Shown: positions 1 to 19,031 of the stretch, piece after piece | Numbering within the stretch: the stretch's first letter is position 1 | How the letters are laid out: every line of letters starts with the position of its first letter | Assembly: GCA_028281705.1 (NCBI GenBank) | Contig: JANQJH010000078.1 | Span: 1 to 46,954, forward strand | Direction: 5' to 3' | DNA length: 46,954 bases | Source: Verrucomicrobiales bacterium | GTDB taxonomy: Bacteria > Verrucomicrobiota > Verrucomicrobiia > Verrucomicrobiales > DEV007 | Made by a program: the position numbers and the translations under genes | Notes under the pieces: generated by a model | What the model was told of the DNA's origin: nothing | The model's database searches: none | What the model saw: the letters and a program-made list of their open reading frames with translations, nothing else

Positions 1-1140
1 CCCTGGCTCGTAAACGTCCCCGCAAGCCTCTCCGACACAGGTAAGCGAAAGCGCGAGTTCTTCGAATCGAAGCGCAAGGCGGAGGCGCGAATCCGCTGCT
101 TGAGCAGAGTTTCAAGGACGGGAATCAAACAGGGCTGAGCTAGCAAAAGCTCTGGAGCCCTACGGCGCAAGCCTCTGGGAAGCAGTGAACTTCTTCGTTG
201 CGATGCAGAGCCAGTTCCTGCCAGCCCTTGGTGAGCATCAGGCCTCGGTTGAGGATGCGATTCGGTTCTTCCTCAAGCACCAGGCGGAAAGAGTCGCAAG
301 CCGGGAGTTCTGTGCAGCGTTCGATGAATTCAAGGCCGCCAAAACCAATCGACGCCAACGGACGAAAGATGATTACACCCACGTCTCCGGAAAGTTGGCG
401 AAGCACTTCAAAGGCAAACTGCTGGCCGACATCACGGCACACGATATCGACGCCGCTATCAACCAAGAGTGTCCTGGCGAATATGGCCGCCGGAAATTCA
501 TGGCCGTGTTGAAGACCTTGTTCAACTGGTCAATCCGAAGGGATTATCTCTCCACGAATCCAGTCCTGAAAATCGATCCCGTCGAGCTCCGCCCCTCCCA
601 GAAACCGATCTTCACCAATACCGAGGTCATCCAGCTACTCACCCACTGCACCGACGAACTCCTCCCCTACTATCTCTTCGGCCTCTTCTGCGGCATCCGC
701 CCGAAGAGCTTCAGCGCCTGGAGTGGCGGCACGTGAACATGAAAGAGGGGCACATCTACGTTCCCGAATCGGCCTCCAAGACGTGGGAACACCGCTACGT
801 CGATCTCCCAGACAACCTACAAGCTTGGCTCGAAGTCTACGGCAGAAGTCGTTGCGGCTGGATCTGTCCAGCCAACTTCGCTGAGAAACACCGAGCCAAC
901 TACCAACTCGCCGGCTTCACCAGCTGGAAACAGGATGTCATGCGACACACCTTTACCAGCAATCATCTCGCCCATTTTGGTGATCTCGACGGGCTACTCC
1001 AGGCAATGGGTCACCGCTCGAGCCCTCAGACCCTCTGGCGCTACTACCACCGGGCTCGGACGAAGTCGGAGGCTGCAGAATACTGGGCAATCGGTCCCAC
1101 TATTCGAGAGAAATCGGCGCCCCTCGAAGTGGTTCTCTAA
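1..1140 (+). pseudogene. Broken tyrosine recombinase (island integrase), 5' end outside the window
   Basis: This is a phage-type integrase that would cut and rejoin DNA at an attachment site, but it is broken. The reading frame enters from outside the window (frame 1, WLVNVPASLSDTGKRKRE), shifts near 113-119 and shifts again near 697-700. An extra A in the run TTCAAGGA, compared with the second copy at 18695, explains the first shift. One missing base in the codons for GIRPEELQRLEW explains the second. The central part (185-700) carries the SAM-like core-binding domain. The C-terminal part (700-1140) carries the catalytic domain: box I Arg in GIRP, then DVMRHTF with Asp at the usual HxxR histidine position, then MGHRS and the RYYHRA tyrosine. 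All catalytic pieces are visible, so it decayed recently or needs frameshifting. The frameshifts could also be sequencing errors, which raw reads would settle. Confidence 0.85.
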
Positions 1141-1181: not shown

Positions 1182-1887
1182 TTCAGAGCCTCACACAGAT
1201 TCTGGAAGATACACGATTGCGTTCATCGGACTCTGTCGAATAGAGCGAACCAAGACGTGCATGCGATTCGCCTCACTTCCGAGCTGTCAGCCATCGCGTG
1301 TTCACTCAATTGCTCCAATAGGGAGCGACTGTGAATCTTCTGGCTTTGCCCTCGATGGATCGAATCCAGCCTTCCCACCAACCTCACGGTCAATAGGTTA
1401 CGTAGGCAGGTCAATCGGGAACGCTTCCCGCAAAGCAAGCAACTTTGCACTGGCCTTGCATCTTTTCGGGTTGTGCTCCAGCCCCTTGGAGGAACAGAGC
1501 TTCCGCTACCCGAAGACCCGCAACTCCATACGACTTGTCCCTGGTTCTGCGACAGAGAAGGCGCTAAGACAGGAGTCCTCAGGTATTTACGAACCGGTCG
1601 AGTCCACGACTGGCGGCTCGTTCGTTTTCGCCACCGTGACACCTGGTGGAGGCTGCGCTCCGATTTTCCAGGAGGGGGCGCGTCGGCTCGGCCACTATGG
1701 CGCAATAGGTGTGTTCACTTCAGCTCAACAGTGAAGCCCCCTTCTCGGCCAAGCTAAATGCTGAGGCTGAGCCGGTTTGCACGATGTGTAAAGCCTGGCC
1801 GTCCCACTCGAAAAGAGGGCGCACATGGGATTGGAAAAGCAGAGATTTACATGTTTCGTGAGCTATGAACAATTGGGAGGTGTGGAA
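1182..1887. other. About 700 bp with no supportable gene
   Basis: Long open frames exist on both strands here (roughly 1261-1734 plus and 1223-1705 minus). They overlap each other, have no recognisable domain, low-complexity Ser/Arg-rich translations and no ribosome binding site. I treat the stretch as non-coding or decayed. It must contain the promoter of the downstream TrlF-like ATPase gene, but no convincing -35/-10 pair was recognised. Confidence 0.5.
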
Positions 1888-4848
1888 ATGAATTCTGGTT
1901 CGCGTTGGCATCGTTGGGAGCCACATGTGCACGCCCCCGGAACCGTTCTGAACGACCAGTTCAAGGGCCCTGACCCATGGGAGGCCTACCTCACATCATT
2001 GGAATCAGCGACGCCTGTGATCCGCGCAATCGGCGTTACAGACTATTATCAGACCAACACCTACGAGCGTGTCTGCGAGGCAAAAAAAGAGGGGCGCCTA
2101 CCGAAGTGCGATCTGATCTTTCCGAATGTGGAGATGCGATTGGCGCTTGGCACCGTTAAGGGAAAGTGGGTCAACATACACCTCCTCGTTAGCCCCGAAG
2201 ACCCGGATCACCTTACAGAGTTAAGTAGGCTTCTCGCCCGCCTCTCTTTCGACGCTCATGAAGATTCGTTTTCATGTAGCAGAGATGAACTTGTTCGACT
2301 TGGGAAGCGATCAGAGCCATCAGTCAAGGACGACCATGCTGCACTGATGCACGGTTCGGAACAATTCAAGGTCTCCTTCAAGCAGCTGAAGCAGGTATGG
2401 CGCGATAGTGCTTGGGCAAAGGAAAACACATTAATCGCCGTGGCAGGAAGCCAGACGGACGGAACTTCAGGCGTCAGAGACGGTGCAGACGCCACCCTCC
2501 GGCAAGAGGTAGAGAAATTCGCCCATGTGATCTTTGCCAGCAGCACAGCCCAGCGAGAGTTCTGGCTCGGTCAAAAGGCGGCATCCGAGGACGAGTTAAA
2601 GGAGCGATTCGGGGGCCTCAAGCCATGTATGCATGGTAGCGATGCACACGACCCAGGAAGAGTCGGATCTCCCGACGGCGACCGCTACTCTTGGATAAAG
2701 GGGGCAGTTCACTTCGACACGCTGCGACAAGCATGTATCGATCCAGCTGGTCGGGCATTTGTGGGTGATGAGTCTCCAGCTATTGCTACCCCATCGCTGA
2801 TCATTAAGGAAATTGAAATCAAGGGTACTTCCTGGGCGCAGGTACCAAGGCTGGCGCTTAATCCCGGCCTTGTGACCATCATCGGCGCGCGTGGCTCAGG
2901 CAAAACCGCACTCGCCGACATGATCGCCCTTGCTTGCGACGCTGTCTCTGATCGCCTCAGTTCGGCTTCGTTCCTGAAAAGAGCCGAAGACCTTCTTCAC
3001 GGGGGCTCAGTCTCCCTGACCTGGCAAAACGGAGAGACAGTCACACGTTCCCTCGACCTTTCAGACGATCGTTCTATGGGCGAGTATTCTAGTGCGCGTT
3101 ATCTGTCGCAGCAGTTCGTCGAGGAATTGTGTTCAGCTCAGGGTGTGACCGACGCACTAATGCAGGAGATCGAGCGTGTAATCTTTGAAGCCCACGCGCT
3201 CGCGGACCGCGACGGTGCTGTTGACTTCCAAGACTTGCTCGATCTAAGGGCTACCCGGCATCGGGAGTCTCGCTCACGGGAAGAGCGCACCCTGTTCGAT
3301 CTCTCGGAGCAGGTCAGCGCGGAGCTAGAAAAGAAACAGCTCATTGAGGGATTGAAGAAGCAGATACAGGAAAAAACGAAGCAGGTAGAGTCATACACCA
3401 AAGAACGATCCAAGCTCGTATCGAAAGGCAGTGGAGCGAGAGTGGAAAGGCTAAACGCTTTGACGGCGGCCGCCGACAAGGTGCGGAGCCAATTACGGTC
3501 GATTCACGCACAAGAGCAGTCGCTTCTCGCCCTCGAAGACGAAGTAAGAAGTTTTCGGCGCTTCCAAGCACCTGAAGCACTGCGGAAGGCAAAGGAGAAA
3601 CACAGGCTGAGCGGACTGAAATCAGAGGATGACTGGGCGCCATTCTTACTCGACTACACAGGGGACGTGGATGCCACGATCGCCGCCCACCTTGTTAAGG
3701 CACAGAAGGCGGGTAAAGACCTAAAGGGCGCGGCTCCGACTCCAGCCGATGACGACCAGCAACCGTTGATACCTGCCGATGCGAACCTCGACGAACTTCC
3801 TCTCGCGCTATTAGACGCAGAGATTGCACGCCTTGAGAAGCTTGTGAGCATCGATAAGAACACAGCAAGGAGGTTCTCGGCTGTGTCTAAACGGCTCGCC
3901 GAGGAATCAACGACCCTGAAAGGACTGAAAGAGAAACTCGCTGACTGCGAGGGGGCAAAAGAGCGAGCTAGAGCTTTGGTAGCAGATCGCGAGTCGGCGT
4001 ATGTTAGAGTGTTTGAATCAACACTGGCAGAGCAAGATGTTCTGACGAGTCTCTATGAGCCACTGATGGCTCGTCTTCAAGCCGCCGAGGGAACGCTGAG
4101 TAAACTCTCCTTTTCGGTAAGTCGGGAAGCAGACGTTGCTGGCTGGGCGGATGAAGGCGAAAGCCTTCTCGATCTTCGTCAAAAGGGTTCATTTAAAGGT
4201 CGCGGAAGCTTGCGTCAATATGCCGAAGCCTCACTGAAATCAGCATGGGAGACGGGAAGTGCTGAAGCAGTTAGCGAAGCGATGCAGCAGTTTCGATCCA
4301 GGCACGAAAGCGAATTGCTGGAGCACTCGCCGGTGTTGAAAAGGAATCGACAAGACTATCGGGCCTGGGCCAAGAAATTTGCGAAGTGGCTCTACGGAAC
4401 CAACCACATTTCCATCCACTACAGCATCGACTACGACGGAACGGACATTCGAAAGCTCTCGCCGGGAACACGGGGCATCGTTCTCTTGCTCCTATATTTG
4501 GCATTGGACGACGCAGACGACAGACCTCTGATCATTGATCAGCCCGAGGAGAGCTTGGACCCGAAATCTGTCTACGATGAACTGGTGGGGCTTTTCTTGG
4601 CGGCAAAAAGCAAACGGCAGGTAATCATGGTGACCCACAATGCTAATCTGGTTGTGAATACCGACGCTGATCAAATAGTCGTCGCACACGCTGGAACCCA
4701 TCCTCCCGGCGAACTCCCCCCCATCAGCTACCACTCGGGAGGGCTCGAAGACGCCGACATTCGCACGACCGTCTGCGACATCCTGGAAGGCGGCGCAGAA
4801 GCATTCAAGGAGCGAGCGCGGCGACTACGCGTGCGCCTGGAACGCTGA
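1888..4848 (+). CDS. TrlF-like PHP phosphoesterase domain fused to SMC/RecN-like AAA ATPase
   Basis: A 986-residue protein with an N-terminal PHP metal-dependent phosphoesterase module and an ABC/SMC-type ATPase split by coiled coil. PHP metal motifs are HVH at residues 13-15 and MHGSDAHD near 248-255. Walker A, GARGSGKT, is at about 333-340. Charged heptad-rich coiled coil runs from about 450 to 790. The signature-like LSPGTRG is near 857, Walker B with catalytic Glu (LIIDQPEE) near 880-890, and the switch histidine in MVTHNAN near 915. The architecture matches proteins annotated as TrlF family AAA-like ATPases, often found in defence islands and presumed to act on nucleic acid; the substrate is unknown. 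The start at 1888 is chosen over 1825 because GGAGG lies 7 bases before it. The gene converges on the five-gene operon and sits between integrases, which supports a defence or mobile-element role. Confidence 0.85.
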   Translation: MNSGSRWHRWEPHVHAPGTVLNDQFKGPDPWEAYLTSLESATPVIRAIGVTDYYQTNTYERVCEAKKEGRLPKCDLIFPNVEMRLALGTVKGKWVNIHLLVSPEDPDHLTELSRLLARLSFDAHEDSFSCSRDELVRLGKRSEPSVKDDHAALMHGSEQFKVSFKQLKQVWRDSAWAKENTLIAVAGSQTDGTSGVRDGADATLRQEVEKFAHVIFASSTAQREFWLGQKAASEDELKERFGGLKPCMHGSDAHDPGRVGSPDGDRYSWIKGAVHFDTLRQACIDPAGRAFVGDESPAIATPSLIIKEIEIKGTSWAQVPRLALNPGLVTIIGARGSGKTALADMIALACDAVSDRLSSASFLKRAEDLLHGGSVSLTWQNGETVTRSLDLSDDRSMGEYSSARYLSQQFVEELCSAQGVTDALMQEIERVIFEAHALADRDGAVDFQDLLDLRATRHRESRSREERTLFDLSEQVSAELEKKQLIEGLKKQIQEKTKQVESYTKERSKLVSKGSGARVERLNALTAAADKVRSQLRSIHAQEQSLLALEDEVRSFRRFQAPEALRKAKEKHRLSGLKSEDDWAPFLLDYTGDVDATIAAHLVKAQKAGKDLKGAAPTPADDDQQPLIPADANLDELPLALLDAEIARLEKLVSIDKNTARRFSAVSKRLAEESTTLKGLKEKLADCEGAKERARALVADRESAYVRVFESTLAEQDVLTSLYEPLMARLQAAEGTLSKLSFSVSREADVAGWADEGESLLDLRQKGSFKGRGSLRQYAEASLKSAWETGSAEAVSEAMQQFRSRHESELLEHSPVLKRNRQDYRAWAKKFAKWLYGTNHISIHYSIDYDGTDIRKLSPGTRGIVLLLLYLALDDADDRPLIIDQPEESLDPKSVYDELVGLFLAAKSKRQVIMVTHNANLVVNTDADQIVVAHAGTHPPGELPPISYHSGGLEDADIRTTVCDILEGGAEAFKERARRLRVRLER

Positions 4849-4894: not shown

Positions 4895-7567
4895 TTAGGT
4901 CAGGAAAAGGCTCACATGCCCCCCTGGTTGTATAGGGACGACAAAACCACCATCATCGACTTCTGCACCTAACAGTATTGCGGAAGTAAATCCCGGGTCG
5001 CCATCTAGGAAGAGGCGCGATCCGCCGTGGATTGGAGCTTGTTTCAGTATCTTTAGTGGAATATACAATCTCGGTTCGATTGCTAGGTCTCCATCATAAC
5101 TATTTCCAGTCGTCTGCTTCCAGCCCTGGGCTACAAGTTCGGCTGACAGTTGGTATGAACTAGCGGCAATTGCTATAGGTTGCTGCCTCGGGAGCACGGA
5201 TCCAAAATCACGCTCGAACCCGACAATTTCAAAGCGATACTCAGGAGGAAGATTTGAGAACTGATTTTCGCTGTTGACAATTAGAGTCGATTCTCCCTTT
5301 GAAACCACCCTCTCGCCTTCGATCAAATGTACTTCAAATTCATAGTCGTAGCCAAATCCCCTTGGAGCATCTCCGCGCGCAACCACCTCTTGATCGGTGT
5401 AGTAAAACTCCAGAACCGGGTATGAGTTCGACCGCTCAGGAACTACTGCTCCAGGTACGACAGCCACCGTGACGAGGCGAGTCGGAGCATTATTCGGCTG
5501 CGCTCCCTCGACTTGTTCGGCGACCGCACGCCTAATGATCAGCTGGTAGCTTGTTCCCCCCTCGGCTCCGACGTCAGCCATGGTCTTATTCCTCGCATTG
5601 TAGAGGATGTGGAACTCGCTGCTTGGATAGTTGCCCGGTTGTGAAATCGGCTGGTGTGGATTCATTGGCTGCCATCGCGGCATAATTGGTCGAGGAGTGA
5701 ACCAATCTGTCCAGTCGGTCCAATTCGATCTAAGCTCGAAGCCAGGGATGTTCGGGTTCTCGATTGCTTGAATCCGACAGCGCCACTCCCAGGTGTCCCT
5801 GCGCGTCAGACCGATTCCCGGGAGGCCAAGGTGCGGCTCCGAGGGATCTTCCGGTTTTGGAGCAAGAAGAACGCTGCCATCCGACACCACATTCGCTGGA
5901 AGTCTTGCCGTGTAGCGTCCACTCTCGGCCGCGATGCGACGCGTGTTGATCGGCTCACCCCTCAACCAGCTTTGGAGCATCGCGCGCTCTGGATCGGATA
6001 TCTGCCAAGTTCCACCAAGGAGTGATTCGGACAACACCACCGCAAGCGAGCGAGACGTAGATAAGGGTGAAAAAGTGTTGTCAGGTCTCGCGCGCCGCCA
6101 CTCTAGATCAACGTCGAATTCATTCGTTGCGTCATAGATCGGGCGCCTTACGGTTCCCGCCGCACCGGGATCAACGGGATTGCCAGATATCGAGACCCTT
6201 CGCAGGGTCTCCCACTCAAACCGCAGGTTCCACTCAAGCGGTATCACTGACCGCAAAGTTGGCATGGGTGGCGTGATGCTTGATCGGAAGGGAAAAACGG
6301 CCAGTTCGGCATAACCTTTTCTCGGCTTCGTAATGTCGTTATCGCTTTCTTCGATTTGAGGTCCAGGAACGAGATAACGGGCGACAATACAGATTACATC
6401 CTCCTGATCTGCCTCAATCACGCTCATTACAGTTCGCGCTGTCTCGACGGTGGACGCGCCTTCCGCAGTCCCAACGGCAGAACTCTGTTTTTGATAATCT
6501 AGTGTCTCGATGGGCTTGGGCTCCGCAAAGGCTAGTTTTGCGAAACGCAGCACTTGGCCGCTGAGCACATCCATTTGGCTCACCGCGATTCCAGATAGAC
6601 TGACCAATGCGCCATCCTTCAGATCGTCCGCACGAATCTCCCCAAATCCTCGGTGTGTTGGACCATCCTCCGGCTGATCCTGGACGACCAGCTCAAACGC
6701 CATTAGGGATCTTTCATCTTCGTCGCCGAATCCCGGAATCCCCCCGTCGGCTAGAACTAGCTTGTCACCGACGATTCCATCGACTCCAATGACCGGATGA
6801 ACGGTCGCAAGGAGAAAATCGTTATCAAACAGCGGAGGATCCGCACCACCCTGGCCTAAGGCAGCATTAGGAATCCTTCCGCGTGCAAGATCGCTGCCAA
6901 TACCGCTCGCAATCGTGCGAAATCGAGCATTGGCCTCCCGCGACGTTCCCTCGCGTCCAGGCAGCAACAGATCTATATACGTGTCAAGGGACGACAAGCG
7001 GTCATCTGCTTCATGCTCGTACCCAGTCACCGGTTCTGCTGCGGCGAAATAGTCCGCACCCGCAGTCCTTACAAATTGAATAGGAGTTGCGAAGTCTGAG
7101 TAGTCGTGTCGGGTGATCCTCGAATAGGTTGCGCCCACAATTGGAACTCCCTCCGGGTCTACCAGATCCCCGGAATTGGGATCTGAAATCCCGATTACAC
7201 CTCTTACTCCGAACACCGTCCTTGCACTTTCCGGTATTCTGATTCGGTGTTCGATCCACTCTCTAAATGCAAGAAGGAGCGCGGGATTCTCCTCCAACTT
7301 GGGAGTGCGACGCAAGATTCCGAGGACGTAGTCATCGCGGAACTGCTCAGGATCATAGTTGGCCCCTGACGGAGGAGAAGAAGATGAATTCATCAACTCC
7401 AAGACATCTGCGATCACAACCCCCTCAATGCTTTCAAGCGGTATCGTCTCCAGTGATACGATTCGCTGCGGAGAGGGATGCTCTACTGTATGTTGGAGTA
7501 TCGAAGCCACCGACAGATCTCCCCGTGCTTGATCTCGCGTAGTCATTCTATCAATGGGGCTATCCAT
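4895..7567 (-). CDS. Large protein of unknown function, last gene of the five-gene operon (about 890 aa)
   Basis: I do not recognise this protein. It has no signal peptide, no membrane segment and no catalytic motif that I can name. The N-terminal 100 residues look helical. The remainder is rich in Pro, Gly, Asp and beta-type alternation, with a Trp-rich stretch (NWTDWTDWF) around residue 600 that resembles fibronectin- or Ig-like beta-sandwich sequence. The start is set at 7567, where ATGGATAG overlaps the stop codon of the upstream gene by 8 bases, implying translational coupling. An ATG at 7609 would add 14 residues and a 50-bp overlap. It closes an operon beginning with a peptidoglycan amidase. 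A structural or carbohydrate- or surface-binding role is possible, but that is inference. Confidence 0.75.
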   Translation of the reverse strand: MDSPIDRMTTRDQARGDLSVASILQHTVEHPSPQRIVSLETIPLESIEGVVIADVLELMNSSSSPPSGANYDPEQFRDDYVLGILRRTPKLEENPALLLAFREWIEHRIRIPESARTVFGVRGVIGISDPNSGDLVDPEGVPIVGATYSRITRHDYSDFATPIQFVRTAGADYFAAAEPVTGYEHEADDRLSSLDTYIDLLLPGREGTSREANARFRTIASGIGSDLARGRIPNAALGQGGADPPLFDNDFLLATVHPVIGVDGIVGDKLVLADGGIPGFGDEDERSLMAFELVVQDQPEDGPTHRGFGEIRADDLKDGALVSLSGIAVSQMDVLSGQVLRFAKLAFAEPKPIETLDYQKQSSAVGTAEGASTVETARTVMSVIEADQEDVICIVARYLVPGPQIEESDNDITKPRKGYAELAVFPFRSSITPPMPTLRSVIPLEWNLRFEWETLRRVSISGNPVDPGAAGTVRRPIYDATNEFDVDLEWRRARPDNTFSPLSTSRSLAVVLSESLLGGTWQISDPERAMLQSWLRGEPINTRRIAAESGRYTARLPANVVSDGSVLLAPKPEDPSEPHLGLPGIGLTRRDTWEWRCRIQAIENPNIPGFELRSNWTDWTDWFTPRPIMPRWQPMNPHQPISQPGNYPSSEFHILYNARNKTMADVGAEGGTSYQLIIRRAVAEQVEGAQPNNAPTRLVTVAVVPGAVVPERSNSYPVLEFYYTDQEVVARGDAPRGFGYDYEFEVHLIEGERVVSKGESTLIVNSENQFSNLPPEYRFEIVGFERDFGSVLPRQQPIAIAASSYQLSAELVAQGWKQTTGNSYDGDLAIEPRLYIPLKILKQAPIHGGSRLFLDGDPGFTSAILLGAEVDDGGFVVPIQPGGHVSLFLT

Positions 7568-10145
7568 GTATGAATGTGGGCGAAGGTGGAATGTTGGTGG
7601 CTTGCGCATACGCTACTGGAGCGATCGCAGGATCCGAAAACTCAAAGCGGAACACCTCAGGATCGGTCGTCGAGCGCGAATCGACTCCAATTGACTCCGC
7701 GGGGCGAATCTCTGTGCTGCGAAGGATCGCTAACCCATCTGGGGATTCTCTCAGTTCGCATACGGGGAAGCGTGCGCCTAGGGCTACCTTATAGCATAGA
7801 GCAGGATCCCGCTCTGCTACAGTAATCGCCAGATACTCCCAGCCTCCCAGCAATGCACCTCCGGCAGCGCCCTCATGATCTGGGCCATCATAGGGGAACT
7901 CGATTCTCTCATCTGCAGCAGGATCAAACCCGTCGAAGACGGAGTGACCCAAGAACTGCCAGCGATCAGCTTGGGGCTCGACAAACCAAGATTGTGTAGA
8001 AAAGTACGCCAACGGGTCAGCGGCGAGGTAGGAGGCCGAGATTGTTCCATTGGTCACCGCGGATACATCCACGGTCGGACTTCTCCGGAACAGAAGAGCA
8101 TGAAGTCGAACAATCTTCTCTGCCTCCATAGATCGCATTGGTAAGTCTCCCTCCCAAGCAGGGCCCTGAAGATTGTCGAAGTGGAGGGAAGCGCGGTATT
8201 TACCAGTTTGTCCGAGCGGTGTCAGAGCGATAGGCACGTGCTCACGCAATGAAGGAGGTGTAGGCGGGTGTGAAGAGAGGATACGAATCTCGTGCGGATC
8301 AACAGGCTCTGGGGGCGTGAGGGGTGACTCTGAGCTCCGCTTGACGGGGTAGGGTCCCTCCCAGTGTCCGCCAGTCGTTTGAGCGTAGACAAAATATCGA
8401 AAGTCACGACCGAATGGGATCGCTTTTTCACGCGCAAGTTGCAGCGCATGTCCATCTATCTCATCAATCCTGTCCTCCGGCAGTTGAAGTGCAATTAGCT
8501 CCTGCGGCGTCAAAACCACGACTTCGCCGGTTGGCTTGTCAGAATACACCATCAAGGTTTCACGGTAGTCCGGGACCTCTTCTGTGCGATCCGTGCTGAT
8601 CGCCGGGTCTCCGGAGATCCAGAGCGTATCAGGAGCGTGCCTCCTAGCTTCCTCAGGATCTAGTTTTGAATGAACCTTAGGCTTAGGATCCAGCGTTACC
8701 CACGAAGGAGGAACTTGCCCTCCAGTGGTTCGTACTAGCGCAAACGACTTGTGGCGATAATCGGATCCGATATTGGTCACCTTGATTGCAACCTTGCCAT
8801 CACCAGTCGACGCTTCGAACTGCCTCGTCTCCGCGCCATCCTGAAGTCTTAGGATTATCTTGCCATCCTCAACATACATAGCCTCGGGGTAGCTCTCCGC
8901 CCCCTGCTCCAGTGCATTGTTGAAGCAATCTGTGTGATGGGGTGGGTGGTGGGTATTTTCCACAACCTCTCCGTTGTGCGTCCATGTCAGTTTTGCGGTG
9001 ATCTTTGCAAACGATCCGCTTTCCTCATCCCAGTAAGAGGTCGCATCGAAAATGGGGCTTTGAACCGCAAACAGCTCGCCCAAGGGCAATCTCAAAACCG
9101 TGCCTCCAGAGCTGAAACAGTCCAGCTCTGTCCCAGCGGCCACCGCCATTGTGATTTGCTTCAAAGTCTCCTGCCGCTCACTAATCAAAGTGGTTAAAGG
9201 AACCAAGGCAGGTTGCAACCGACTAACGATATCGTAATGAGTGATTTCGGTGCCCACTCGACCGATCAAAGGCAGCGCTTTTTCGGCCAGCTCAAGCGCC
9301 GCCACGAACCGGGGAAAAAACGTTCCCTTAGTTGCGCCATCGACCACGAGTCTGCGATCTTGCTGCAAGGTGGCCGCCCCGAAGAAACTTTCTGACACAG
9401 TTGTGTAGAACGAGGGCAAAAAGGCGTCAATCCACTGATCGATTACCTGCCCATTGTTAGTATATAAGTTTGGCGACAGTGCGAGTTGATCCGTCAAGAG
9501 TCCCCTTGCCGCTGCAAGAATCGAATCACGATCAACCTCATCATACAACTCACTCAGTATTTCCTCCGCCGTCTTCCGCTCCGAGGCCACGGCCGTTATC
9601 GCAGGTGTCGCTGTGATGCCAACGGCATCCCCATCTCCTGGGCCCGATACCTCTAGCCCTTCCAGAGGCTGGACGTCCTTCCGACGGAGCCCAATACTTC
9701 TTTGGTCAACCGCTTCGACTGAGATCGGATCCTCGACCTTCGCCTTCAGTCCGCCTAACAATTGATCTCTAATCTTTGTTTCGTCGTCGTCCTCCCCGGC
9801 AGTGTACTCGACGCGAATTTGTTCGACGGTAATCGTATATGACCCCGGCTTCGCCTTTGTGATCAGAACCCGTCTCGATGCGCCGAACAGGTCAATACCA
9901 TACTGGTCGTCGACGGTAAATTCGTCTTCGTAGACCGTGCCTCCGTCGGCGTTGGAGAGGACAAGATTGAATTTGTCCGAAGGGTGCGGGAGCTTGATGT
10001 CCGCAAGGTCTACGTCGGTCGACAGCACGCTTGGCATCACCCACATGAACCGGAACGACCTGTTGTCATCACCACTTCCAGCCACGTAACAGCCCATCCG
10101 CAGCTCATAGGTTCCCAACATTCTATTTCGTCTCCTCATTCGCAT
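7560..10145 (-). CDS. Large protein of unknown function, fourth gene of the operon (up to 861 aa)
   Basis: Not recognised. There is no signal peptide or transmembrane segment. About residues 20-120 look like a beta-rich domain. A helical region follows from about 195 to 340 (SELYDEVDRDSILAAARGLL onward), then mixed beta-rich sequence with a His cluster (HHPPHHTDC) near residue 405 and several Pro-rich linkers. The frame opens at 10145, three bases after the upstream stop codon. GAGG stands 7 bases before an in-frame ATG at 10139, and AGGAG stands 10 bases before another at 10121, so the true start may be either of these. It overlaps the next gene by 8 bp. The tight spacing says the three giant proteins are made together and probably form a complex. 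Confidence 0.75.
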   Translation of the reverse strand: MRMRRRNRMLGTYELRMGCYVAGSGDDNRSFRFMWVMPSVLSTDVDLADIKLPHPSDKFNLVLSNADGGTVYEDEFTVDDQYGIDLFGASRRVLITKAKPGSYTITVEQIRVEYTAGEDDDETKIRDQLLGGLKAKVEDPISVEAVDQRSIGLRRKDVQPLEGLEVSGPGDGDAVGITATPAITAVASERKTAEEILSELYDEVDRDSILAAARGLLTDQLALSPNLYTNNGQVIDQWIDAFLPSFYTTVSESFFGAATLQQDRRLVVDGATKGTFFPRFVAALELAEKALPLIGRVGTEITHYDIVSRLQPALVPLTTLISERQETLKQITMAVAAGTELDCFSSGGTVLRLPLGELFAVQSPIFDATSYWDEESGSFAKITAKLTWTHNGEVVENTHHPPHHTDCFNNALEQGAESYPEAMYVEDGKIILRLQDGAETRQFEASTGDGKVAIKVTNIGSDYRHKSFALVRTTGGQVPPSWVTLDPKPKVHSKLDPEEARRHAPDTLWISGDPAISTDRTEEVPDYRETLMVYSDKPTGEVVVLTPQELIALQLPEDRIDEIDGHALQLAREKAIPFGRDFRYFVYAQTTGGHWEGPYPVKRSSESPLTPPEPVDPHEIRILSSHPPTPPSLREHVPIALTPLGQTGKYRASLHFDNLQGPAWEGDLPMRSMEAEKIVRLHALLFRRSPTVDVSAVTNGTISASYLAADPLAYFSTQSWFVEPQADRWQFLGHSVFDGFDPAADERIEFPYDGPDHEGAAGGALLGGWEYLAITVAERDPALCYKVALGARFPVCELRESPDGLAILRSTEIRPAESIGVDSRSTTDPEVFRFEFSDPAIAPVAYAQATNIPPSPTFIHG

Positions 10146-10148
10146 ACC

Positions 10149-13100
10149 TCAAGGTGTATCATTCTGTGCCGTGTAGAAGGCGAGCAAACCATCGTAAAGG
10201 GCGAGTTCAGGTCGGCTCGTGTGAAAAAGGGTCTCCGAGGAGGCCGCCGCGGCGGTCTCGTAAGCCTCGCGTAATCTGACTCCGGAGTTCCTTGGGTAAC
10301 TTGTATTCTGACCTTCGGCATCCATCCCGTATTTGTAGGTGACCGATCCACCGATGCAGGTGCAGGGAGTGAGACAGACCCGAAATCCAGCGGAAACGCT
10401 TGCCAAGTAGCCTGCGGTCATTCTACGCTGCTCAGGAAAAACGGTCACGGTCATTCCAACCGCGGCTTCCGCCCAGACCTCGATGACATTCCACCTGATT
10501 CCGAATACGACGACCCCCCCCCTGCCGGCGATACTAAGGGTGACTATTCCAGTTTGTTGGAAATAGATTGGCCGGGTAAGTTGAATCTCGCTAACCAATA
10601 TTGCACCGAGATGGATGCTGCCAGCGAGATAAGCACCGAATGCTCCACTGTCGGATCCCAACATGTCTTCGTAACCTGCTCTCAACGCGACACCAATTGT
10701 GAAGCGCGAACCAGATCGAATCGGTGTTAGGTTTTCTGAATCGATCTCGGCTCTGAACATGATCCCGCCCTGAAGACTGTTGATCGGAATTGGCCAAGGT
10801 GGCGGCCTCCACTTTACCTTCACGGCTCTTCTCCAATTGTCTGGCCGGGGAGGGAAACCCCAGTTGATCTCTAACAATCCAGGCCCGAAAGCCGCTCCGA
10901 TGCTACCAAGGTCAAACGCAAAGCTGCCAAAATCCATTGCAGGGAGCGCAAGGTCTCCTGAAATCCGGCGGCGTCGCCAATCGATAGCGATCATCAAGTT
11001 TGTGAACGGCACTTCTGCAATTGTCAGACTGGTGGCAAACCGAAATACCCCTTCATCGGACATGAAAATTGTCGTTCTCCGGCCTTCGAACACAGAACCC
11101 AGTCCAGGGATCTGAAGGTTCTCAAAGTGCATCCCCGCGAACCAGTCTGACTCAGGTGAGTAACGCCATTGGTCGAGATTTTCTCCCGTCAGCTTGTCCT
11201 TCAGGGCACTATCGTCCAATGCAAGAATGGCTCGCCGCAAACCAGATTGGGTGATCTTGTGCCCCGCAACTATGACTAATTCACTTGCCTCAAGAAATCC
11301 GAGGTTCATCGTTTGGTCTCGCCCGCCATCCTCCGGGGGAGATCCATTTACGCCCACACCGACTAGCCAGTATTTTTCTCGGCTCTGTGTCGAGGCCCCA
11401 CCCGAAACATCACCGTAGACGAAGAATCCAGTAACCGTTTCGCCACTGTTTCCCTCAGACCAGTTCCACTCCACTGTCGTTCGCCCTTGAAGTCTAGTAG
11501 GCTCAGTTGTGTTCCCTTGATTCCACGCTAACTGATCAACCGTAATCCGAACGAAGTTGAAAAGTTTGAAGGAGAGTTCGTTGACCCCAAGTAGGTCGAA
11601 GGAGATGCCCAGCCTTCTCTGCGGATCCCACAGGAAGTCGATCGCTGTTTCCAACGTCGTTGCAGAAGAGAAGTCAAGGTACGGGATTGAAAATGGGATC
11701 TCCCCAATGAATCCGAACGATCGGGGAGTTGTTCCACCGCTCTGATCGGGTCTTCCCAGCCTGAATCCCTTGATACGGAAGTCGAATCCTCGTGGAAACA
11801 ACTCGAGGTTCTTGGCCAGCTTCACTGTAAGAAAGTCGCTCACCCATGTCCCGAGAGGATCATCGAAATCAAAAGACAGTCCCTCAATGTCTAACTCTTT
11901 CAGTCGCCCATCAAACCACTGGCTCACGATAGAGTCTGCTGCTCTTGGATCGAAGATGAGAGCGGCCTTTTCCAATGAAACAGCCCATTTCCGACCTCCC
12001 CTAGGACCACTATACGAGATCGCCACTTGATCCACCTGTACACGCTTGAAGTCTTTCCAATCAAGTTCAATTCCCACCTCTGGCAAACTGGCTCGGAGAA
12101 CGAGTGACTCCCTTCCAGTTTCTTGCTTCTCCCAGCGACCGGTGATATCCACCCAATTTGGACGCTCACCGCCCTCGATTTTTCTCGTAAAGAACGGGAT
12201 ATTCCATAGCACGCGCAAGCGGAGAACTTCGAGTTTGCTCCTGGATATCAGAATTTGGGCTTGGGCTAGGACGAGTTGATAGTCTGCTGCGTTCGGGTTG
12301 GTGAGAGCATCCTGTGCGGGAATCCAAGCAGTTTTCCATTCTTCGCCATCCCTCCTCAAAGTTAGCGCATCCTCAGCATTGGACGGCTGCTCCACATTTA
12401 TTCCATAGCCCACAACGCTCGTAGCCCCCTGGCCGTCGAACCATGAGAGCTTTGCCGGAAGCGATTCCAGAATGGTCTCAAGTGACTCAGGGATCCCCGG
12501 GGGAGCACCAACTCGCCCATTAGCAAAAACTATACCGCACCAATTGGGATCGAGAGGGCTGTTTACCGCACTTGCATCGCCGGAATTTGGTTCGGGAAGA
12601 ATGTGATCCCACCAGTCTTCCACGCGAATACAGCTACCCGCTGCAGGATCATTAATCTTGACTCCCCGCCCACCACCAGGGTCGCAAGCAATCATCGCAG
12701 CGGCTTTGGCCTGCCCAGGAAGATTCCTTACATTCTCAACAAGAATCTGCGTCGGAAACCTGCGGGTAAACTCGCTAGAGAGACCGTTAAGTTGAAGAGC
12801 CCATCCGTAACCCGCCTCAATCGGATTGGGGTTATTATTTGCGAATTCGGTAAAATCCCCCGTTCCAACCTTCCAAAAACGCCTGAGTTCCGAATTTCGC
12901 TTCTTCGCGCCATCCTCCAACCAACGCACTTTCGGTATGTAATCTTCCGCATGTAGCGAACCGATCACCTCCCCGGGCGGGGGGACTTGAGGGAACTCAA
13001 AGGTGACATCAATGTCTTCATAGATGTTCGCATCGTAAGAATCCCCCGACTCCGCAAGTCGGATCAACTCAACAGGGTTTACGTTTGAGACTGGCTTGCG

Positions 13101-14843
13101 AGTCAAAGTCGTCCCTTCATGGAAGTCCAAGATGACGTTCTCTGGTTGGTTCGATCCCCTCCTACCCGCCTCGATCTTGAAGCCTGCGGCAATGTCACCG
13201 TTTAGGGCGAGAGCTGAACTTTCTTTGAGCTCACCGGTTGTCGAGAAATTGAGTTCAACGTATCCAGTTTGCCCTTCTCGTGGAACGTATCCCTCAGTTC
13301 TCGCATCGGTAATTGGCAAAGCTCTAGAACCATCCTGTCTCGGATCGGGGTCGCCTTTGAGAGGAGTTTTTTGAAGCCTCGTGAATCGAATCCGTACATC
13401 GTCAGCACGCGTTTCATCGGGGTGATGTCGGGACACTACGCTCGCAGGGGGGGCGCCCTCATTGCCTTGAACGATCAAGGAGACGTCCCCATAACTCAGA
13501 CAAGGACTGTGATTCGGCTCCACCAGATCCCTGACGAGTGGAGTCCCAAGCGAGATCGATGTCTTGCTTGCTGAGAGAGCCTCTGCCACAATATACCCAA
13601 CACCGTCCCCACCTCCGCTACTGTCTAGGTCTCGCTGCCGGAGTCGGATATCCGAGCCGAACAACCTGGCGCCTCGGTTCGAACGATCCGGCAGTCGGAG
13701 GAGCTGGATTTCTCCCGAGAACTTGATTCTGTGCTGCCCGGCTAACAATCTACCATCGATGCAGGCAGCGCTAGTCTCGTCATCGTTGAGGATCTCAATA
13801 TCGCCCTCTATCGGGCGGACGGCGTAGTCTATCTCGGTCGTGTCAAACGGCCCAGCCTTTAGCTGAGCAATTTGCTGTTTTGCACCTCCGGATCCCGATG
13901 ATTTCAGCCCTTCAAATGCTCGGTTGATCTGTGACCTCCTCGTTTGAAGGTAACGACTCAGTTCTTCGATCCTATCAGCCGGCTCTATGGATGGAGCTTG
14001 CCCCTCTACGTTCCGGAGGAGGGAGCGGTTTACACACTTCCCCTGAAGTCCGACATCTAGGATCCGGGCATCTACCAATGGAGCGTCAAATCTCACCCAG
14101 GGCTCGTGTTCCCTCACCAGAAGATTATCCGCAACCTCAGGTACAAACCGATATCTAGAGCTGAGAAAAGAAAGCGAGTAACGTATCGTCACTTCACCAC
14201 TTGGGGTAACTGGCACATCAGATCCAACAGGCAGATCAGCCGGAAAACTCAGAAAAAGCTCGCGCTCCTTAGACGGGATTATCAACGCGTTCCCAAATTC
14301 AGGAGCTAGGGCGTACCGTACAAGCCAGCTTTGCGGATTGTCCTTAGAGAGGGTCTTTGTAAAACCCAAGGCCGGATCGGAGTAGTCGTGTGCTCTACAC
14401 TGATAGATCTCCTCGCCCACGCGAAATCGTACGCTGCCCAGTTGAAGAGCTTCATCAATTTCACTGCCTGAAGGGTTCTCATCTCCTGACCGAATGCCTA
14501 GCGCGACTTGGCTCAACTCGATGCTCCGAGAATCCAACCATAGCGGCAGGCCAGCAAACCAACTCTGGACGCCCTGATGGACGACAGGGCTTGCGTTTAC
14601 GACCCTAAAGAGGCGTCGGTTGACAATTGAATCTGGATCATTGAGTGAGAAGACGTCTTGCTCGATTTTCGTGACGGCAATGGCGCTGCCTGGCCGCCGT
14701 GCCCGAACTACCAACGTATGGTTTCCACTTGACCCCAACACGACGGTAATAGCTCCATCGCCGTCGGTGAGTGTCGCCCGGTCATCGGATACGGCAATTG
14801 GTGCATCTTTAATCGTGAAATCTCCGTAAATCAGATCACTCAT
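10149..14843 (-). CDS. Giant beta-rich protein of unknown function, third gene of the operon (1564 aa)
   Basis: At 1564 residues this is the largest gene of the window and I do not recognise it with confidence. There is no signal peptide. The N-terminal 60 residues look like a small beta domain. A charged helical patch (SRYLQTRRSQINRAFEGL) sits near residue 300. The last 600 residues alternate polar and hydrophobic positions with frequent Gly (for example GAYLAGSIHLGAILVSEIQL), as in extended beta-sheet or beta-solenoid proteins. The extreme C-terminus carries a Cys cluster (CLTPCTCIGG). The pattern recalls huge beta-rich proteins filed under domains of unknown function such as DUF6603, but I cannot confirm that by eye. 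It begins 29 bases after the lipoprotein stop and ends 3 bases before the next frame opens. A scaffold or fibre role is inference only. Confidence 0.8.
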   Translation of the reverse strand: MSDLIYGDFTIKDAPIAVSDDRATLTDGDGAITVVLGSSGNHTLVVRARRPGSAIAVTKIEQDVFSLNDPDSIVNRRLFRVVNASPVVHQGVQSWFAGLPLWLDSRSIELSQVALGIRSGDENPSGSEIDEALQLGSVRFRVGEEIYQCRAHDYSDPALGFTKTLSKDNPQSWLVRYALAPEFGNALIIPSKERELFLSFPADLPVGSDVPVTPSGEVTIRYSLSFLSSRYRFVPEVADNLLVREHEPWVRFDAPLVDARILDVGLQGKCVNRSLLRNVEGQAPSIEPADRIEELSRYLQTRRSQINRAFEGLKSSGSGGAKQQIAQLKAGPFDTTEIDYAVRPIEGDIEILNDDETSAACIDGRLLAGQHRIKFSGEIQLLRLPDRSNRGARLFGSDIRLRQRDLDSSGGGDGVGYIVAEALSASKTSISLGTPLVRDLVEPNHSPCLSYGDVSLIVQGNEGAPPASVVSRHHPDETRADDVRIRFTRLQKTPLKGDPDPRQDGSRALPITDARTEGYVPREGQTGYVELNFSTTGELKESSALALNGDIAAGFKIEAGRRGSNQPENVILDFHEGTTLTRKPVSNVNPVELIRLAESGDSYDANIYEDIDVTFEFPQVPPPGEVIGSLHAEDYIPKVRWLEDGAKKRNSELRRFWKVGTGDFTEFANNNPNPIEAGYGWALQLNGLSSEFTRRFPTQILVENVRNLPGQAKAAAMIACDPGGGRGVKINDPAAGSCIRVEDWWDHILPEPNSGDASAVNSPLDPNWCGIVFANGRVGAPPGIPESLETILESLPAKLSWFDGQGATSVVGYGINVEQPSNAEDALTLRRDGEEWKTAWIPAQDALTNPNAADYQLVLAQAQILISRSKLEVLRLRVLWNIPFFTRKIEGGERPNWVDITGRWEKQETGRESLVLRASLPEVGIELDWKDFKRVQVDQVAISYSGPRGGRKWAVSLEKAALIFDPRAADSIVSQWFDGRLKELDIEGLSFDFDDPLGTWVSDFLTVKLAKNLELFPRGFDFRIKGFRLGRPDQSGGTTPRSFGFIGEIPFSIPYLDFSSATTLETAIDFLWDPQRRLGISFDLLGVNELSFKLFNFVRITVDQLAWNQGNTTEPTRLQGRTTVEWNWSEGNSGETVTGFFVYGDVSGGASTQSREKYWLVGVGVNGSPPEDGGRDQTMNLGFLEASELVIVAGHKITQSGLRRAILALDDSALKDKLTGENLDQWRYSPESDWFAGMHFENLQIPGLGSVFEGRRTTIFMSDEGVFRFATSLTIAEVPFTNLMIAIDWRRRRISGDLALPAMDFGSFAFDLGSIGAAFGPGLLEINWGFPPRPDNWRRAVKVKWRPPPWPIPINSLQGGIMFRAEIDSENLTPIRSGSRFTIGVALRAGYEDMLGSDSGAFGAYLAGSIHLGAILVSEIQLTRPIYFQQTGIVTLSIAGRGGVVVFGIRWNVIEVWAEAAVGMTVTVFPEQRRMTAGYLASVSAGFRVCLTPCTCIGGSVTYKYGMDAEGQNTSYPRNSGVRLREAYETAAAASSETLFHTSRPELALYDGLLAFYTAQNDTP

Positions 14844-14872
14844 TGCAACTAGGGCTATCTCGGGCTTTAGAT

Positions 14873-16084
14873 CTATGGTGCGGGAGGTGAAACCGTCTGC
14901 GGGGTTGCTTCACCAGCGCGGAGCAACCGTATCGGCTCGGCGGTTATTCTTATAAGATCGCCGGGAACCACGGGCATTCGCTCAAACCTCGCCCCACTCT
15001 CCCCGAGGTAGATCCCACGCGTCCTGGACACTGCGAAGTAGCCGGACACTTTATCCTCACCCAGAACCGTCACGCCGTAATAGGGATCTCGTTGCCCCTT
15101 CGCAAGCGGGCCGAGTGTTGATGTCAGAACATCGGATAGTTCGATCCCTCTTCGCCAGGGCATGATTACCGTCTCGTCGTCTCCGATTTTCACTTTAAAA
15201 TCACGCGGAGCCGGAAGAAATTCGGTCGCGACCAAGTTCCAGTCTCTCGCAAACGAGCTGCCGGCGAACTGATTATAAATTTCAAGTGCGACAATGTCAG
15301 CGGTCTTCCCACGCGCATCTATGAACTTCGGGATTGCTACATCAAACGCCCTTGAGCCGGGATCGAACTTGTTAAATCCAACGGTTCCAAAGCGCATGCT
15401 TATATGCGCCCTTACAACAAAGGCTTGGGTTATTCGCTCCCGGTTGTTGTAGAAAGTGACCCGAAACTCATCTCCATCGCGCACAAAAAGATCGCTAGAA
15501 TCAGAGGACTCAAGTTGAATCTCGCCCAGGATTCCATCTCCAGCCTTGAACGGGGCGTTCGGCGTGCCTTCGTCACCGGTGCGATCACCGAAATGAAGCA
15601 CAAGCTCCCGATCTAATTGGAGCAGCAAGTCAGCGTAGCTACCCCTAAACTCAAACTGCCCCGTAGGAACGTTTCCAATGTCGCTTTGTGAGGCCCTAAC
15701 CATCCACGTTTCCGAACCGTTATTGTGCGTTCTGCTAAAAATGAAGGTCTGGATAAAGTGCTTTGCAGTACCTGCAGAGCTGAACCGAACGTCTCTCTTA
15801 TAAACAAATTTCGTATCGCTAAGAACTTGCAGGAACCTCGGTCTACTTCCGTCGCCTTGTAACGTCATGCTAAAGTGTGATCCGCCCAAAGGACGGTACC
15901 CGTTCTTCTCTTCGAACCTGATTACGAACGATGTCTTGGGGCTGGATCGTGCTGCGGCAAGGAAATAACCGGACTCGAGCCCGTTTCGATGAAGTGGCGC
16001 GCATCCGGCGAGGAGGAAACTCAACGAAACTATCAGTGCGATGACAGGACACCAAGGTTCATGCCTTGAGTCTGACTCAACCAT
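14873..16084 (-). CDS. Lipoprotein of unknown function, second gene of the operon
   Basis: A 403-residue protein with a lipoprotein signal: hydrophobic CPVIALIVSLSFLLAGC, lipobox LAGC, lipidated Cys28 from the chosen start. It is therefore likely anchored in a membrane, probably the outer one. The mature part is beta-rich. Near the C-terminus a segment reading YYGVTVLGEDKVSGYFAVS followed by VVPGDLIRI resembles the SLBB/soluble-ligand repeats of polysaccharide export proteins, but the match is weak. Start: the frame extends to a TTG at 16126. I prefer the ATG at 16084, which gives a conventional signal peptide, although neither has a clear Shine-Dalgarno sequence. It lies 51 bases after the amidase stop. 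It is the only protein of the operon with an export signal, so it could be the envelope anchor or outlet for the other products. Confidence 0.8.
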   Translation of the reverse strand: MVESDSRHEPWCPVIALIVSLSFLLAGCAPLHRNGLESGYFLAAARSSPKTSFVIRFEEKNGYRPLGGSHFSMTLQGDGSRPRFLQVLSDTKFVYKRDVRFSSAGTAKHFIQTFIFSRTHNNGSETWMVRASQSDIGNVPTGQFEFRGSYADLLLQLDRELVLHFGDRTGDEGTPNAPFKAGDGILGEIQLESSDSSDLFVRDGDEFRVTFYNNRERITQAFVVRAHISMRFGTVGFNKFDPGSRAFDVAIPKFIDARGKTADIVALEIYNQFAGSSFARDWNLVATEFLPAPRDFKVKIGDDETVIMPWRRGIELSDVLTSTLGPLAKGQRDPYYGVTVLGEDKVSGYFAVSRTRGIYLGESGARFERMPVVPGDLIRITAEPIRLLRAGEATPQTVSPPAP

Positions 16085-16135
16085 TTGTGTTTTCTGAGAT
16101 AAATTGATTTTCCAGTCCTCCCACAAATGCCCAGC

Positions 16136-16792
16136 TCAACCATCGACGTCCACGGTTGGAGCCTCGCCCTCCTTGCCGGATATCAGCTCACGAGTCTCAA
16201 GCAGTTGGAATCGCTGTGTGACGCAGTCGTAGAGGGCGATTGCTAGCCCCTCAGCGAGCCGAAGGCGGTAGTTCTCATCGGCGAGCCTGGTCTCGTCCGG
16301 CTCGTTGGTGATAAAGCTGATTTCGACTAAGCAAGCTGCGGTCGAGAGAGAATGATTCGCGGGGTTCAACACGCCAAAATTGTTGGCGCGTATTCCCCGG
16401 TCTCGGTACCGAGTTCGCTGTAGTGTCTCTGCTTGCACCAGTTCGGCAAGTCTGTATGAGGCAGCCGTTGTTTGAGTGCCAGTATAGACCCAAGTTTCAG
16501 TGCCCTGAATCGAAGAGTTCTCGTCTCCATTGAAGTGAATGGAGAGAAATGCATCAGCTCTATTGTCCCTCGCGACATGCGCTCGATCTCTTAACCCTAG
16601 GTTTACATCCGTATCCCTCGTCATCAAGACTGACGTGTTTGGCTGGCGGGATAGTATATCTCGACACTTGAGGCCGACATCCAGTGTTAAATCTTTCTCA
16701 AGGGTTCCATTTGGCCCTGTCGCATTGTTTGGGCTAGACCCTCCTATTTCTGTGGTTCCCCCGTGACCTGGATCAATTACAACTGTCGGCAT
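16136..16792 (-). CDS. N-acetylmuramoyl-L-alanine amidase (Amidase_3), first gene of the operon
   Basis: A zinc amidase that cleaves the bond between N-acetylmuramic acid and L-alanine of peptidoglycan. The 218 residues are essentially one Amidase_3 domain. The zinc ligands are visible as His10 (DPGHGG), Glu32 (NGTLEKDL) and His86 (SIHFNGD), and the catalytic Glu157 is in CLVEISFITNE. Unlike host AmiA/B/C enzymes it has no signal peptide, AMIN domain or SPOR/LysM cell-wall domain. It starts at residue 1 with the catalytic fold, as phage endolysins and amidases of injection-type particles do. The start is well supported by AGGAGG five bases upstream, the strongest ribosome binding site in the island. 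It leads the five-gene operon, so local wall opening or cell lysis is probably part of what the system does. Confidence 0.93.
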   Translation of the reverse strand: MPTVVIDPGHGGTTEIGGSSPNNATGPNGTLEKDLTLDVGLKCRDILSRQPNTSVLMTRDTDVNLGLRDRAHVARDNRADAFLSIHFNGDENSSIQGTETWVYTGTQTTAASYRLAELVQAETLQRTRYRDRGIRANNFGVLNPANHSLSTAACLVEISFITNEPDETRLADENYRLRLAEGLAIALYDCVTQRFQLLETRELISGKEGEAPTVDVDG

Positions 16793-17054
16793 TCTTCCTC
16801 CTTTTTGTTATCAACGAGCAGGTGGCGCGTTGAGGTTGATACCCTTCGATTAAACACCGAAGTGATTCGACTAGTCGATCAAAATTCTCTTTTTTCTGTC
16901 GGCCGAGTTCCATTTTTTGTTCCGCCCAAACGATATAAGCGCGCGAAGTTTCACGCTAGCATGAGCTCCTGATAGTCAGTGTGTTGATTCAGTGAGTGGG
17001 CAGGTCTTACTACCTCTCGAAGACCTATAAGCATCTCGGTTTTCCATTCTTTAA
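16793..17054. promoter_or_regulatory. Divergent control region between the five-gene operon and the recombinase
   Basis: This stretch separates the minus-strand operon from the plus-strand recombinase and must hold the operon promoter. It is AT-richer than its surroundings. It contains a hairpin with arms CTTCG/CGAAG (16846-16864) and a perfect 12-bp palindrome TCGACTAGTCGA (16867-16878), 75-86 bases before the amidase start, a plausible regulator site. No consensus -35/-10 pair can be assigned safely. Confidence 0.45.
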
Positions 17055-17082
17055 TACGACATAATATATCTTATGTCGTATG
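17055..17082. promoter_or_regulatory. Perfect 11-bp inverted repeat, putative operator or recombinase arm site
   Basis: The arms ATACGACATAA (17055-17065) and TTATGTCGTAT (17072-17082) are perfectly complementary around TATATC. The TAATAT at its centre could serve as part of a -10 element. The same half-site occurs again at 17140-17150. The position about 90 bases before the recombinase start suggests autoregulation, or binding by the recombinase itself. Confidence 0.75.
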
Positions 17083-17139: not shown

Positions 17140-17150
17140 ATACGACATAA
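17140..17150 (+). promoter_or_regulatory. Third copy of the ATACGACATAA half-site
   Basis: An exact 11-base copy of the left arm of the inverted repeat at 17055-17082, in direct orientation with that arm and 17 bases before the recombinase ATG. Bound protein here would overlap the ribosome binding site region (GAGGG at 17158-17162), which fits repression by the gene's own product or by an unseen regulator. Confidence 0.7.
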
Positions 17151-17167: not shown

Positions 17168-18184
17168 ATGATGAGGAAGGATGGTGTAAAAATGTCAGGA
17201 GGGCACTCCCGCGCCCGTTCAGAAATCGTCCCTACACACGTGAAGGCGTCCGACTTGCTTCCATCGGATGCGTGCGAAGACCTTCTTGCTTGGTTCAGTC
17301 TATACATGGGTATCGAGCGTCAAGCAGCCTCCAATAATACCCTTAAGGCAAAGAAGTCGGATCTGGAGATCTTCCTTGATTACCTTGATCATATCACCGG
17401 ATCTACCCATCCTGATGATTGGACACGATCGGTCACCCGATCATTCCTCGAACATTTGGAGCAAACTGGTGAGAGAAGTCCTTCAACAATCAACCGCATA
17501 CTCGCAACCCTGAAACACGCCGCGAGGTGGATTCACCAAGATCGGCCATTTCTCGCTGGAAACCCGTGTGACCATATCACGGAACTTCGGGCAGAGGCGC
17601 CAGCATGGAAGGGGCTCACCGACATTGAGATTGCCAGACTAAAGTCGGCTGCTGAACGACGCGTACTTCTCAAGAGACGCAAGACCGATCAGCCTTTCCG
17701 CGACAATGCGATATTCATGGTGTTGCTGTATACCGCTCTGCGAGTCTCCGAATTGCTGGCACTACGGCGGAGTCAGTACGAGGGGACGCACTTTGCCAGC
17801 GTAAGGCGCAATGCACGCCTAGTGACGCCAAAGGTGTTCGTGGCAAGCCACGCTCAAGACGTCCTCGACGGCTACCTCAAGAAGGAGCGCCCGGCGGATT
17901 CGCCCTACTTGTTTTGCACTAGGACGGGCAACTCTCTAGATCGGCAGGCTGTGGATCGCTCGTTGAAGCGCATTGCTACAGCGGCTAACGCCCATTTGCC
18001 CCATGACGAGCACATCAGACTTTCCGCCCGTGTGCTTCGGCACACCTTACTACACAAGGCCGCCAATGAACACGGTGTCGAATATGCAAGGGAGCTCTCA
18101 GGACATTCATCCGATCGCTATATTTGGCGCTACGTGCAATCATCGGACGAGGTCGAAGGCGGAGCAATTGGGGGCTACTTTTGA
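17168..18184 (+). CDS. Tyrosine recombinase (XerC/D-like size)
   Basis: A 338-residue site-specific recombinase. An N-terminal SAM-like core-binding domain (about residues 35-140, NTLKAKKSDLEIFLDYLD) is followed by the catalytic domain: box I Arg in TALRVSEL (about 196), SARVLRHTLLHKAA (box II Arg; the usual HxxR histidine position is Arg), ELSGHSS, and nucleophile Tyr in RYIWRYVQ near 322. GAGGG lies five bases before the ATG at 17168; a second ATG follows directly. It differs clearly from the broken integrase at the left edge, so the island carries two unrelated recombinases. It probably mobilises the segment containing the five-gene operon, or it is a separate insertion. Upstream palindromic half-sites suggest autoregulation. 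Confidence 0.92.
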   Translation: MMRKDGVKMSGGHSRARSEIVPTHVKASDLLPSDACEDLLAWFSLYMGIERQAASNNTLKAKKSDLEIFLDYLDHITGSTHPDDWTRSVTRSFLEHLEQTGERSPSTINRILATLKHAARWIHQDRPFLAGNPCDHITELRAEAPAWKGLTDIEIARLKSAAERRVLLKRRKTDQPFRDNAIFMVLLYTALRVSELLALRRSQYEGTHFASVRRNARLVTPKVFVASHAQDVLDGYLKKERPADSPYLFCTRTGNSLDRQAVDRSLKRIATAANAHLPHDEHIRLSARVLRHTLLHKAANEHGVEYARELSGHSSDRYIWRYVQSSDEVEGGAIGGYF

Positions 18185-18634: not shown

Positions 18635-18699
18635 TCGCCAATCGGCCAGACGATTCCAACATCACCCGCCAAGGTGGCGATACTGTTAGGATTCGGCGC
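18635..18699. repeat. 65-bp dispersed repeat, copy A
   Basis: This matches 43763-43827 at about 58 of 65 positions with no gaps by hand alignment. It holds a small hairpin, CGCCAAGGTGGCG. It is non-coding and lies between the tRNA-Ser remnant and the integrase fragment. It may be a REP-like family of this genome. Two copies in one window make chance very unlikely. Confidence 0.85.
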
Positions 18700-19031
18700 G
18701 CAAGGTGGAAGCGCGAATCCGCTGTCTGAGTAGGGTTTCAGGACGCGAGTCAAACAGGGCCGAGCTGGCGAAAGCCCTAGAGCCCTACGGTGCAAGCCTA
18801 TGGGAAGCCGTGAGCTTCCTTGTCGCCATGCAGAGCCAATTTCAGCCAGCCCTAAGCGAACATCAGGCGACCGTCGAAGAGGCGATTCGGTTCTTCCTCA
18901 AGCACGAAGCGGAGAGAACCGCGAGCAGGGAGTTCCGTGCCGCATTCGAAGAGTTCAAGGCGGCCAAATCCAATCGTCGCCACCGGACGAAGGACGACTA
19001 CACCCACGTCTCCGGGAAACTGGAGAAGCAC
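18695..19031 (+). pseudogene. Truncated second copy of the left-edge integrase
   Basis: From about 18695 to 19031 the sequence closely follows bases 78-415 of the window, with protein-level agreement such as GRESNRAELAKALEPYGASL and DDYTHVSGKL. The frame is intact where the first copy has an extra A. The match stops after the Lys-His of SGKLEKH, where the first copy continues with FKGKLLADIT. The N-terminus before EARIRCLSR and the whole catalytic domain are missing, so it is inactive. It shares the orientation of the first copy, 18.6 kb away, and directly follows the tRNA-Ser remnant. It looks like the integrase stub of a second, mostly deleted island. Confidence 0.9.

Follow-up and report, generated by a model that had tools for sequence, protein, structure and literature searches.

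An operon-like run of genes for an amidase, a predicted lipoprotein and three large family-less proteins on a mobile island of a Verrucomicrobiales bacterium

Positions 4895–16792 of a Verrucomicrobiales contig carry five co-directional genes, ordered E-D-C-B-A and all located on the minus strand, which include about 3,300 residues of coupled family-less proteins on a mobile island beside a defence-type gene. The operon that bears A–D is a genuine unknown, and its job is most likely in bacterial conflict. Our best guess, weakly held at a probability of about 0.3, is a mobile bacterial-conflict operon in which E would serve as a peptidoglycan-targeting effector. The window, the whole stretch of 46,954 nucleotides that was analysed, is one complete contig of a genome of 8.32 Mb in 678 contigs.

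Organization of the operon

ORF calls and translation place E (16136–16792, 218 aa) as the first gene of the run. It alone is preceded by a strong Shine-Dalgarno sequence, AGGAGG (16797–16802, minus strand), which is located 4 nt before its ATG. The next gene, D (14873–16126), encodes 417 aa from a TTG or 403 aa from the ATG at 16084, and is separated from E by 9 nt or 51 nt, respectively. C (10149–14843, 1564 aa) follows D after 29 nt, and B (7560–10145, 861 aa) follows C after 3 nt. A encodes about 890 aa from the ATG at 7567 (4895–7567; the longest frame, 4895–7609, has 904 aa) and, given this start, shares 8 nt with the end of B. The run looks like a coupled operon, with a 3-nt gap and an 8-nt overlap that suggest selection for coupling. 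At 53.5% GC, the probability that 1564 codons of random sequence stay open is about 1e-29, as calculated from the base composition, which indicates that frames of this length are not due to chance. A preliminary description of this DNA had proposed five linked minus-strand genes with tight spacing behind a strong ribosome binding site, with which the frames, the gaps and the AGGAGG before E agree.

None of A, B and C contains a 19-residue stretch above 1.6 on the Kyte-Doolittle scale, so that neither a signal peptide nor a membrane helix is evident. All three are lysine-poor and net acidic, and neither RTX nonapeptides nor recognised sorting domains were found in them by sequence inspection and Pfam. 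By eye, C gives the impression of many amphipathic strand-like stretches. D, the second gene product, has LLAGC as its lipobox, followed by Ala at position +2, and is a predicted outer-membrane lipoprotein. A–D show no significant similarity when compared with one another. AlphaFold models computed with no relatives as input are unusable for residues 880–1564 of C (pLDDT 33) and residues 270–417 of D (pLDDT 38).

Searches for families and relatives of A–D

Only E is recognised by the models of Pfam, PHROGs, NCBIfam and PADLOC, none of which matches A–D; no PADLOC defence-system family matches any of A–E. PDB sequence searches with A–D are also without a match, and none of the four has a relative in the conflict or defence models searched. 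The claims of three giant proteins without signal peptide, membrane segment or known family, and of a lipoprotein, are upheld by hydropathy and these model searches and, as a prediction, by the lipobox. DUF6603 was considered as a family for C, and its model (PF20248) is unmatched anywhere in the genome, even at an E-value of 10.

C, searched alone, has no relative in 57 related genomes, in 388 genomes from the same phylum and 307 from the same order (partly overlapping sets) or in phages and plasmids, and no peptide-pattern match in the viral and genome contig sets. A, B and D have no relative in plasmids, phages or the phylum genomes, and none by pattern in the viral contig set. A joined query of B and C finds none in 396 genomes from the phylum of an Acidobacteria record. 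Joined queries are less sensitive (D in a joined query was missed even in its own genome), and D was searched again alone. A weak match to D in another genome (L003/L053) is due to chance, since the matching frame is antisense to a PfkB-type gene. The co-occurrence check suggested in the preliminary description finds no second copy of the five-gene operon in the collections searched. All these searches used single-sequence queries, and they cover two phyla by genome and most other bacterial phyla by exact peptide patterns only, among which more distant homologues may therefore exist. Such patterns catch close relatives only, which makes the empty scans of the viral and genome contig sets weak evidence.

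The amidase and its plasmid relatives

E matches Pfam Amidase_3 at 1.7e-43 and has no signal peptide. Its zinc ligands and catalytic Glu (H10, E32, H86 and E157 in alignment numbering) are invariant in the five aligned sequences. Judged by this match and these four conserved positions, E is a zinc N-acetylmuramoyl-L-alanine amidase with intact catalytic positions, as the preliminary description had it.

The closest relatives of E in the collections searched are signal-less amidase domains in proteins of rhizobial and Paracoccus plasmids. In tblastn, the rhizobial domains reach 46–47% identity in the best cases (about 145 bits), compared with 36% at best (103 bits) for phage endolysins. Phmmer with E gives 131–137 bits for the rhizobial domains versus 87 bits for the highest-scoring autolysin from a related genome, and the alignment reveals an insert, GGSSxNNAxGPxGxLEK, common to E and the rhizobial domains. 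In the tree, whose root is uncertain, a branch with support of 99/97 unites the sampled phage endolysins with most host autolysins and leaves E outside; the position of the Nostoc row (1113 residues, wrongly excised) was disregarded. A scan of the genome contig set based on E returned ordinary amidases only, with unrelated neighbours.

Those of the rhizobial and Paracoccus proteins (L028–L031 and L057) whose frames were scanned combine the amidase with an M15 peptidase, or with a subtilase and a murein endopeptidase domain, and most also contain a GDSL esterase. Neither of the two rhizobial fusion proteins that were translated has a signal peptide. Trypsin-like, trypsin-PLD (phospholipase D) and patatin-like genes often lie beside the genes of the fusion proteins, and in one plasmid a CHAT gene is located a few genes away. 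These GDSL-amidase-M15/subtilase loci may constitute a separate conflict system, a role that is read from their gene content. A more distant Amidase_3 domain stands at the end of an AAA-WD40 protein on a Nostoc plasmid (L059, 1663–8555), where Trypco1, a trypsin-TIR-AAA protein and the AAA-WD40-amidase protein adjoin. The protease-linked company of its relatives appears to be the best available hint to function.

The mobile island

The GC content is 53–55% in the operon and the genes directly next to it versus 59% in a sample of the genome, and the tetranucleotide correlation of the segment is 0.69–0.79 versus 0.84–0.97 for control contigs, which is consistent with horizontal arrival. The composition is similar across all five genes. 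Convergent with the operon, a plus-strand gene (1825–4848) encodes a TrlF family AAA-like ATPase, which scores 691 bits against NF045780 (cut-off 350), placing it in that family, and matches the PADLOC model of Ppl at 2.9e-29; by these matches it is similar to the anti-phage protein Ppl.

Divergent from the operon, a plus-strand gene (17168–18184) encodes an Xer-like tyrosine recombinase (Pfam Phage_integrase, 6.5e-14), which is 36–38% identical to recombinases of Legionella plasmids. Upstream of it lies a perfect 11-6-11 palindrome, ATACGACATAA-TATATC-TTATGTCGTAT (17054–17081), and a third half-site, ATACGACATAA, is present in direct orientation at 17140–17150 (plus strand). The Legionella plasmid relatives also have a palindrome upstream of the recombinase, in the same layout and with different arm sequences: the 11-6-11 palindrome is perfect in L047 and L051 and imperfect in L046, and L048 has one arm only. 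In all three of L046, L047 and L051 a third half-site is located 109 bp downstream. The layout is kept despite the other arms, which makes the palindrome very likely the recombinase's own site and its probable core. Two related Midichloriaceae recombinases are without such a palindromic site. The genome contains a single copy of the palindrome, and the operon is therefore not bracketed by two.

Another tyrosine recombinase gene (64–1140, plus strand; Pfam and sequence), the older of the two, has its frame broken near 700. A truncated copy of its start, 82–83% identical and in direct orientation, lies at 18690–19031 (plus strand). The two bracket about 18.6 kb that contain the TrlF gene, the operon and the second recombinase. 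A mobile setting, which the preliminary description had assumed, is thus borne out by the recombinases, the palindromic site and the TrlF neighbour.

Four further features of the window were recorded. A 13-bp unit is repeated 3.2 times exactly at 1143–1184, directly past the first recombinase. A protein of 612 aa (19809–21647), which is unusually long, combines an MlaA lipoprotein domain with a weak alpha/beta-hydrolase match. A 33-bp unit forms two exact tandem copies (24581–24646) in the start of a gene for an outer-membrane-like protein, and a protein of 860 aa (33147–35729) begins with an ECF sigma factor domain.

Proposed function and alternatives

In the conflict reading, E would be a peptidoglycan-cutting effector that is harmless while cytoplasmic and would act on peptidoglycan only once released or delivered. 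D may be its envelope partner, as an anchor or an immunity protein, and A, B and C, co-produced from coupled cistrons, could assemble into a large complex for binding or delivery. This reading is favored by E being nearer to the rhizobial plasmid domains, with their protease and lipase company, than to phage endolysins, by the Ppl-like TrlF gene next door, and by the peptidoglycan-attacking effectors proposed in a multi-peptidase conflict system (Kaur 2020, PMC7159879). However, the protease, NTPase and EAD domains of the trypsin-linked conflict systems (PMC7159879) are unmatched in A–E by Pfam, and none of the five genes is recognisable as one for a protease, NTPase, TIR, CHAT or WD40 protein, so that the usual triggers of those systems are missing. 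The five include no gene for export or delivery, A–D lack relatives in the conflict and defence models, a second copy was not found, and that the rhizobial loci act in conflict is in turn deduced from gene content.

Three other explanations are each rather improbable. The preliminary description suggested a cytoplasmic particle or toxin complex of A–C that is freed when E lyses the producer. A signal-less amidase and large signal-less proteins do share one operon, but the five genes include no holin-like small membrane protein, A–D have no phage family or relative, and E lies outside the sampled endolysin group and nearest to the rhizobial plasmid domains, which weakens the hint of phage lysis. 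A phage lysis module is not supported. It is similarly doubtful that an unrecognised export route takes A–C to the cell surface or the exterior, with D as outer-membrane anchor and E opening the wall for passage. The predicted outer-membrane lipoprotein and the lysine-poor, acidic composition of A–C would suit this arrangement; the lack of signal peptides, RTX nonapeptides and sorting domains in A–C and of a transporter in the operon argues against it. A strongly diverged known system, such as a DUF6603-type or contractile-injection accessory cluster, would have to lie beyond single-sequence searches, the kind used throughout, and the strand-like stretches seen by eye in C would fit one. It is unlikely as well, as DUF6603 is unmatched in the genome and A–D match no contractile-injection or phage model.

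Slightly less probable still is an undescribed mobile antagonism machine, in which cytoplasm-built A–C would deliver or bind the amidase and the lipoprotein would protect or anchor in the producer. Least probable is a chance stack of co-transcribed genes that have no joint function: the patchwork nature of the island, which contains remnants of recombinases, would fit this, but the 3-nt gap, the 8-nt overlap and the similar composition of the five genes make it very unlikely.

If A–C form one complex with the amidase, they would represent a new bacterial means of attack or defence. Concrete starting points for the hunt for relatives are provided by the clade of the amidase and by the site of the recombinase.

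Comparison with known systems

Pfam and PHROGs reveal no sheath, tube, tail or baseplate gene among those scanned, in which the sole AAA gene is that of TrlF; a tailocin or contractile injection system was accordingly rejected, in line with the absence of such genes claimed in the preliminary description. Its interpretation holds in part: the operon, amidase, lipoprotein, giant proteins, mobility and lack of contractile-injection genes stand, and its hint of phage lysis does not.

Type VI peptidoglycan effector/immunity pairs resemble the start of the operon, where a signal-less amidase is followed by a lipoprotein predicted to be exported; in contrast to type VI secretion loci, no T6SS gene is recognised in the window, and D is longer than the usual immunity proteins of such pairs. 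Amidase_3 phage endolysins share the catalytic family and the absence of a signal peptide with E. However, they are at most 36% identical to it, E stands on another branch, and no holin or virion genes were found here. The xerS-difSL and other single-recombinase/site modules (PMC5357621) likewise have a recombinase gene that adjoins a dif-like palindromic site, whereas the site described here is a perfect 11-6-11 palindrome with a third half-site, and the nearest relatives of its recombinase are located on Legionella plasmids. The plasmid proteins of the GDSL-Amidase_3-M15 (or S8) type share with E the signal-less Amidase_3, an identity of 46–47% at best and the insert motif. Their amidase, unlike E, is one domain of a protein of 825–1651 aa, and their loci show no lipoprotein and nothing that resembles A–D.
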